Assembly: GCA_023484105.1 (NCBI GenBank)
Contig: JAMDBD010000018.1
Location: forward strand, 1-59,467
Length of the DNA stretch: 59,467 nt
Origin: Thermoplasmatota archaeon
GTDB taxonomy: Archaea > Thermoplasmatota > Thermoplasmata > Thermoplasmatales > Thermoplasmataceae
Direction: 5' to 3'
Positions within the stretch are counted from its first letter, which is position 1, and every line of letters begins with the position of its first letter. The notes under the pieces are model-generated. The model did no database searches. It had not been told where the DNA came from and was given only the letters and a program-made list of their open reading frames with translations. Positions 57,504 to 59,467 of the stretch are shown piece by piece. The position numbers and the translations under genes are program-made.

Positions 57504-58382
57504 TCACACCCAATCCCAGACGCTACTGTCATACGACCGGACAGCAACAAGCCTGAATTTGGCTTCAGGATGCTTCTCCGATGCACTGTACAGGACAGAA
57601 AGCTGGTCATCCATCATGGAGAATGGCACTAATGTTGATGACCTGTACCTGTCATTCAGCGTGCGTGAAAGTATTGCTGCTTTTGGTATCCTCTTCTCAA
57701 TCGAGAGACGCTGAACCTCCTCCAGAAATGCCGATTTCACATAGCGGATCGAAAATCCTTCGTCGTCATACACCAGAGCCCTGAATCCTCTCTCCTCCTG
57801 CCTGCGGAAGTTGTACTCGATGTAATAGTCGCTGCCTCGAGTCAATCCAGTTTCACTCAGTATATCAGCCTCATAGGAGACCACGCCCAGGTGTATCCTT
57901 GAATCTACAGAATCCATAGCGGCTATTCCGCCGGACGACGGGCCGAGATCGGAGACCCTTATCCTGTTCCCCATTCCAATGATCCTGCGCACTATCCTGG
58001 TAATGTCTTCTGCTGCAGAAGAGTGCATCCTGTAGTCGATGTATACGCCACTGCCCTTCAGATAGAGGCCTGTGCGCACCTGAGAGCCTATTTCTGATAT
58101 CTCATCCATTACCGTGGTGGCCGTCTTCATCTCCTCCGCAGGTATGCTGAGTATGAGGCAGTCACCTCTATTTTCCGGGTTGAATTCCCCGGCCAGTCCA
58201 ATGATTTTGCCTGCAGCACTACCGCACATGAACAGATCGATGAAGCCTTCACTGCCTATCACATGGAAGTCCAGCGGTATCGTCTCCATTTCCTTAAGCA
58301 GGAGAGGAATAATAGGGTGTTTCTGCTCCATGGTTATGGTGAGACCGGTGTCAAGTACTTTTTCAACATCTCTGTAAAGGAT
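57504..58382 (-). CDS. Unknown protein, paralog of the upstream gene; probable ATC start
   Basis: About 292 residues, soluble, no recognised motif. It is a paralog of the gene at 58407-59345: both have GLYLKGSGVYIDYRMH-like / LKDELYIDFRFH segments near residue 110, a TLVPF / TFVPA segment near the end, and finish with VW(D/E)W plus one hydrophobic residue. The first conventional start, ATG 58331, gives 275 residues, but 17 more in-frame codons (from ATC 58382: ILYRDVEKVLDTGLTIT) align gap-free with the paralog's N-terminus. GGTGAT at 58388-58393 (minus strand) sits exactly 5 bases before that ATC, as before the paralog's ATG. Initiation at ATC, or a mutated ATG, is inferred. Confidence 0.65.
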   Translation of the reverse strand: MLYRDVEKVLDTGLTITMEQKHPIIPLLLKEMETIPLDFHVIGSEGFIDLFMCGSAAGKIIGLAGEFNPENRGDCLILSIPAEEMKTATTVMDEISEIGSQVRTGLYLKGSGVYIDYRMHSSAAEDITRIVRRIIGMGNRIRVSDLGPSSGGIAAMDSVDSRIHLGVVSYEADILSETGLTRGSDYYIEYNFRRQEERGFRALVYDDEGFSIRYVKSAFLEEVQRLSIEKRIPKAAILSRTLNDRYRSSTLVPFSMMDDQLSVLYSASEKHPEAKFRLVAVRSYDSSVWDWV

Positions 58383-58406
58383 GCTTTATCACCTCTCTGT
58401 ACAGAA

Positions 58407-59345
58407 TCACAGCCATTCCCAAACCTCCTCATCCATTTCCGAGTAATACTCCAGCAGCGGATGCGTTCCATGATCGGCCATCAGGGAGTTCATCATTATG
58501 GAAACGTATTCATCGGCTTCTGCTGCGGGAACGAATGTGGTGTCGTATAGCCTCCCATTCTCTATGTTAAGGAAAAAAGCTATCCTTGGAATCTTTGCCT
58601 CGTTGCCTCTTCGCCTCCCTTCTACCAGTGATTTCTCGTACACGTAGGTTTCATAGACATTATCTTCTTGGGATATTACTTCAGCCATGCCATGCTCCAC
58701 AGGCTTCGAAGTGTAAAGCAGGATCTTGATCCCCTCATCGGTGACGGATCTCCCCTCTATCTCGGCAACCGCATCCGCGTGGTTTTCAGCCATGTATTTC
58801 ATGAACGGATTGTCCAGGGGTATCGGTATGGAGTATCTCACAACCGCAAGCGGAGTCTGTGAATGCATTTCTTGCATCCTGTCTCTAAATGTACGGGAAT
58901 GCGCCAGTTTTACTATCCTGAAGTTCTGGTTCTTTCCAATAACTTCTGAAAGTATGTCATTGATCTCATGCAGCCTGTTTCCATGAAACCTGAAATCAAT
59001 GTACAGTTCGTCCTTAAGCAGGTAGGCATCGTTCAGTGCCAGAGAGGGTGCTTCCAGGAGATCTCCGATGACCTTCATCCCCTGTATGTTGTTAATCCGT
59101 TCGGATATCGAATAATAGGATCTCTTCTCCACCAGGTCTTTCCTCGAGAGAATGGGTGCCAGGATCTGGTTCGGCTTGCCTGATTTCGGGAAGAACAGCT
59201 GGATGTATGTCCTGTCTTCCTCAGTGAACGTGTATGCCGGTATTCTCTGATCCATCCGTGCAAGCAACTCGAATATCCCGCTGTGCTGCCTTATTGCAAT
59301 GACGCATCGCCTGTCCAGTTTTCCATGAACTTCACTTATCTTCAT
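58407..59345 (-). CDS. Unknown protein, first of a tandem paralog pair
   Basis: A 312-residue soluble protein beginning MKISEVHGKLDRRCVIAIRQ and ending DEEVWEWL. No family is recognised; the alpha/beta pattern suggests two similar domains (about 1-155 and 160-312). ATG 59345 has the Shine-Dalgarno GGTGAT (59351-59356) with a 5-base gap. It lies 24 bases before the proposed start of its paralog, so both are one transcription unit. There is no DNA-binding motif, signal peptide or membrane helix visible. Confidence 0.7.
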   Translation of the reverse strand: MKISEVHGKLDRRCVIAIRQHSGIFELLARMDQRIPAYTFTEEDRTYIQLFFPKSGKPNQILAPILSRKDLVEKRSYYSISERINNIQGMKVIGDLLEAPSLALNDAYLLKDELYIDFRFHGNRLHEINDILSEVIGKNQNFRIVKLAHSRTFRDRMQEMHSQTPLAVVRYSIPIPLDNPFMKYMAENHADAVAEIEGRSVTDEGIKILLYTSKPVEHGMAEVISQEDNVYETYVYEKSLVEGRRRGNEAKIPRIAFFLNIENGRLYDTTFVPAAEADEYVSIMMNSLMADHGTHPLLEYYSEMDEEVWEWL

Positions 59346-59467
59346 TGCCTATCACCAAATATCTTTATTCACACCCAATCGACATGCAGCTGTTGAAATA
59401 CTTAGCGACATCAAGATGCTGACCTGTAAGCTGCAACGTACTGGGTAATCTATTACATAGCATTTAC

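Follow-up and report, generated by a model that had tools for sequence, protein, structure and literature searches.

A probable ATC start codon conserved in a Ta1207-family gene of an uncultured Thermoplasmata archaeon

Comparison with its orthologs makes it almost certain that a gene of an uncultured Thermoplasmata archaeon starts at ATC rather than at ATG, GTG or TTG. The gene lies in a window (the whole stretch of DNA that we analysed) of 59,467 nucleotides, and its features are listed in Table 1. It matches the Ta1207 family (Pfam PF19020) with 121.9 bits, against a gathering cut-off of 26.3 (E = 3.2e-35). The closest loci with names are Thermoplasmata archaeon metagenome assemblies. A structure search found no solved structure for the protein, and Rfam no known RNA element at the ATC. 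The codon appears to be one of several near-cognate starts in this genome that are led by a Shine-Dalgarno sequence (SD).

The start site and the tandem paralog

An earlier note on this DNA had placed the likely start at ATC 58382, in the absence of any ATG, GTG or TTG ahead of Met 58331. Direct reading bears this out. On the minus strand, positions 58385 to 58332 read AGC ATC CTT TAC AGA GAT GTT GAA AAA GTA CTT GAC ACC GGT CTC ACC ATA ACC, followed by ATG at 58331. Directly upstream of the AGC, and in frame with it, stand TAA (58388-58386) and TGA (58391-58389), and the frame of the gene holds no conventional start between these stops and Met 58331. The 3' end of the 16S rRNA in the window genome is ..GGATCACCTCC, so that the GAGGTGAT before the ATC is an 8-base match to the anti-SD.

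The upstream neighbour is a paralog whose stop lies 24 bases ahead of the ATC, and the two Ta1207 genes stand in the same tandem order in G029 (L004). The motif GGTGAT occurs exactly 5 bases before the first codon of both genes (58388-58393 before ATC 58382, 59351-59356 before ATG 59345), and the N-termini align without gaps, both as the earlier note had described. The shared residues include Val6, Leu10, Asp11 and Ile16, and 13 of 52 positions are identical, or 14 when the first codon is counted as Met. Shuffled N-termini gave a mean of 3.3 identities, and none of 20,000 reached 14. The arrangement GGTGAT-N5-ATC is not rare by itself (two matches in the window vs 0.7 expected). The weight of the argument rests on its coincidence with the homology and with the orthologs, not on the pattern.

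Two further genes have possible near-cognate codons of uncertain status. Another Ta1207 paralog of the window genome (L002, G000:C22:2453-3376, minus strand) has ATA at the start column of the family, after GGAGGTGAT, with an in-frame GTG three codons upstream. An ATC in G013 (L010) has both TTG and GTG upstream in frame.

Table 1. Positions of the gene, its start region and other candidate near-cognate starts
Feature	Position	Strand	Remark
Full gene, Ta1207 family (PF19020)	57504..58382	-	292 codons from ATC, plus stop; orthologs align over 1-292
ATC, probable first codon	58380..58382	-	ATC in the G089 and G029 orthologs; ATG, TTG or GTG at that column in more distant homologs
SD GAGGTGAT	58388..58395	-	5 bases before ATC; match to the anti-SD from the 16S 3' end
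SD form AGAGGTGAT	58388-58396	-	kept in both orthologs (three-genome alignment)
Consecutive in-frame stops, TGA TAA	58386..58391	-	end the open frame directly ahead of AGC-ATC; direct reading
Codons 2-17, ATC to first conventional Met	58332..58379	-	probably translated, judged by synonymous change
Met18, first conventional start, internal	58329..58331	-	no homolog begins there
Predicted RNA hairpin, GGUG of the SD with CAUC containing the start codon	58370..58406	-	suggestive only
Tandem paralog, Ta1207 family, ATG start	58407..59345	-	Pfam E = 1.5e-55
GGTGAT of the upstream paralog	59351..59356	-	5 bases before its ATG; direct reading
glyS, candidate CTG start after GAGGTGAT	L162 about 10056; G000:C34:110056	+	no conventional start nearby
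PORgamma (2-oxoacid:ferredoxin oxidoreductase gamma subunit), candidate ACG start after AAGGAGGTGA	L146, G000:C19:56984-57571	-	
Riboflavin synthase-like gene, candidate CTG start after AGGTGAT	L144, G000:C15:29717	+	
Alcohol dehydrogenase-like gene, candidate CTG start	L163, G000:C34:135482	+	ATG in seven homologs

Conservation of the ATC and alternative starts

Orthologs of the gene were found in two genomes, G089 (82% identical) and G029 (80%), that belong to the same family but to a different genus. Both have ATC at the same codon, AGAGGTGAT 5 bases upstream of it and, one or two codons before it, a TGA in frame. The base preceding the ATC is C in all three species; most of the spacer varies. 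The nearest homolog with ATG at the start column is that of G088 (51% identical). Among the other homologs this column is mostly ATG, with TTG in G033 and G068 and GTG in G030, and the wider Ta1207 family also starts there, mostly at ATG and sometimes at TTG. The ortholog alignment that the earlier note had recommended thus speaks for its proposal of ATC initiation, together with the nearby upstream stops and the equal SD spacing.

In the tree, the three genes with ATC group together as a clade (support 1.000), so their history is most simply explained by a single ATG-to-ATC change before they split. Transfer from one genus to the other is also conceivable. The other option in the earlier note, a very recent ATG-to-ATC change, finds no support, since ATC is common to three species in two genera. 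The codon appears to be a conserved start, neither a sequencing error nor a very recent change.

The substitutions downstream of the ATC point the same way. Between the window and G089, 12 of codons 2-17 differ, 10 of these synonymously, and the 14 base differences are distributed 3/0/11 over the codon positions. If 25% of random changes are taken to be synonymous, this excess has P about 4e-5. The pattern indicates that codons 2-17 are translated in all three lineages, and the ATC would be the only shared codon at SD spacing where such a reading can begin. It is improbable, on this evidence, that translation starts at the conventional Met18 (58331) and that the match ahead of it is a leftover or due to chance. 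Met18 is an ATG kept in both orthologs, and it is the start that gene finders would pick in the window. Yet codons 2-17 change strongly synonymously, the 17 codons ahead of Met18 match the N-terminus of the family, and the SD sits at the ATC. Orthologs beginning at Met 58331 were what the earlier note had named as evidence against its proposal, and none of the homologs aligned begins there.

It is very improbable that the ribosome starts out of frame at a conventional codon further upstream, e.g., GTG 58410, and then shifts into the frame of the gene. This GTG shares bases with the upstream stop (GTGA), and the short frame that it opens resembles the N-terminus over a few codons. However, the resemblance is lost in the orthologs, where the spacer differs in length and sequence while the SD and the ATC are invariant, and no conserved slippery site was seen. 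Neither the frameshift from GTG 58410 nor a 25-base near-repeat around it is conserved in the orthologs, and both were rejected. We also rejected readthrough from upstream: the frame is closed by two successive stops both in the window and in L033, and by one in L034. It is hardly credible that the ATC arose by faulty sequencing or assembly, or that the gene has recently become a pseudogene whose start is dead. The three genomes are all metagenome assemblies, but independent ones. Most synonymous sites in codons 2-17 differ between them, yet the ATC is shared, and all three frames are intact for 292 codons. A base error, which the earlier note had wished to check by resequencing, is ruled out by this sharing.

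Probable near-cognate starts elsewhere in the genome and in the genus

We scanned 1.29 Mb of the window genome (G000), in stretches, for starts led by an SD. SDs of at least 6 bases directly preceded the first conventional start at 43 ATG, 13 GTG and 11 TTG codons. Few SD-led frames lacked a reachable conventional start and had coding-like extensions. Besides the ATC of the window, these few included glyS, riboflavin synthase and an ABC ATPase, all with CTG, and PORgamma, with ACG. An alcohol dehydrogenase is a further SD-led CTG case, with ATG at that place in seven homologs. The functional names of these genes are our reading of the sequences, not database matches. The choice of candidates was partly guided by the class of near-cognate codons, and for this reason we give no combined probability. 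All the near-cognate codons in the set differ from ATG by one base, as would be expected of codons read by the initiator tRNA.

The glyS gene has GGTGAT-N3-CTG in all four genomes of the genus, and ATG or GTG at that column in several other genera. In the window genome, about 39 codons pass before its first conventional start. PORgamma reads aaaggaggtga GTC AAG ACG in G000 and aaaggaggtga AGT GAG ATG in G003, and has GTG in G001 and G002. The start column of riboflavin synthase is GTG in G003, TTG in G001 and G013, and ATG in many others. The ABC ATPase probably starts at CTG in G000; in G003, the same SD is followed by ATG. The gene is truncated in G000 (G000:C9:33629-34091), where it is interrupted by a short stretch that nearly duplicates its own sequence (93% identity), either a local duplication or an assembly fault.

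The same scan of 707 kb of G003 returned the CTG of glyS and an ACG before a trpG-like gene. The latter (L304 12677, G003:C13, plus strand) has an ACG that opens the frame after GGTGAT, and its first conventional start comes 75 codons later. A sulfate adenylyltransferase-like gene (sat) of the window genome (L115 2826, G000:C25, plus strand) has CTG after AAGGAGGT, and none of the next 9 codons is a conventional start. This CTG (L240) is a candidate of uncertain status, since the gene has no close ortholog at its N-terminus and its orthologs are too distant for a decision.

A possible mechanism of initiation

The conservation, reading frame, SD and spacing at AUC 58382 can all be read from the alignments. 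We consider it very probable that translation starts there through placement of the ribosome by the 8-base SD and an initiator Met-tRNA with a mismatch at the third base, and that the site belongs to the SD-led near-cognate set. The initiator tRNA (anticodon CAU) would sit on AUC with the first two positions paired and a C-C mismatch at the third, and the SD would most likely make up for the weak codon. Methionine would be inserted, and the protein would begin with Met-Leu-Tyr-Arg-Asp-Val.

The weak AUC may also lower the yield relative to the upstream paralog, which is encoded on the same probable transcript. The fold predicted around the SD and the start codon has -11.0 kcal/mol (z -3.15) in the window. 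When ATC is exchanged for ATG, its predicted stability drops from -11 to -8.1 kcal/mol. The same hairpin is predicted in G089 (z -1.63) and in G029 (z +0.24), and is thus not significant in one species; nothing comparable was seen at the start of glyS. Ribosomes that reach the end of the upstream gene, 24 bases from the ATC, might open the hairpin by translational coupling. The hairpin and the C before the ATC would fit a throttling that is relieved in this way, a reading that is only suggestive at such weak statistics. Both coupling and throttling are proposed from the 24-base distance and the predicted fold. One might go further and suppose a lineage with relaxed start selection, in which AUC, CUG and ACG are routinely used as SD-dependent starts in conserved genes, essential ones among them, and the hairpin-held AUC acts as a throttle coupled to the upstream paralog; we regard this as a rather doubtful possibility.

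In archaea, aIF1 discriminates against non-AUG starts (PMC6237735, PMC8211752). Its loss as a cause of lax initiation was rejected: aIF1 (PF01253) is encoded by a separate gene in the window genome (G000:C4:6785-7000) and is present in 30 of the 31 genomes searched. Absence of the factor is therefore not the reason for the ATC start.

Comparison with known systems

According to a review of 2021, non-canonical translation had been demonstrated in archaea for elongation and termination only (PMC8211752). A survey that covered 36 groups of prokaryotes and more than 60,000 starts counted no more than a handful of changes to CUG or AUU (PMC5622118). Against this rarity, it is unusual for one genome to have several such starts in genes that are conserved. 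Gene finders restricted to ATG, GTG and TTG would mis-call the N-termini of glyS, riboflavin synthase and the ATC gene in this lineage. Several natural near-cognate starts also make the fidelity of archaeal start-codon selection testable. The literature searched, which lacks most subscription papers, contained no archaeal ATC or ACG start.

The closest parallel is infC, the gene of translation factor IF3, which starts at ATC in Streptomyces and at ATT in Escherichia coli (PMC5472188). As in infC, a chromosomal gene has a conserved AUC or AUU start at which the initiator tRNA would be mismatched at the third base. However, infC is bacterial and self-regulating, IF3 being the factor that rejects such starts, whereas the ATC gene encodes an archaeal Ta1207-family protein (PF19020) and not a factor that discriminates against its own start. 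In Streptomyces, the GTC start of sigR is repressed by IF3 (PMC5472188). The two cases would be alike in that a rare start codon keeps one product of an operon low compared with its partner, which is experimentally shown in the bacterial sigR and is a hypothesis here. Ribo-seq of Methanosarcina mazei revealed small ORFs that start at CTG (PMC11456600). Those are CTG only, whereas the genes described here are long and conserved and include candidate ATC and ACG starts. The 2010 proteogenomics of Deinococcus deserti by Baudet reportedly found that a single prokaryotic genome uses several initiation codons that are non-canonical. That bacterium differs in having peptide evidence for its starts, those described here being known from sequence. 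ATC starts are thus known in bacteria and CTG starts in archaeal small ORFs; for the putative ATC and ACG starts of these genes, no archaeal counterpart was found in the literature searched.
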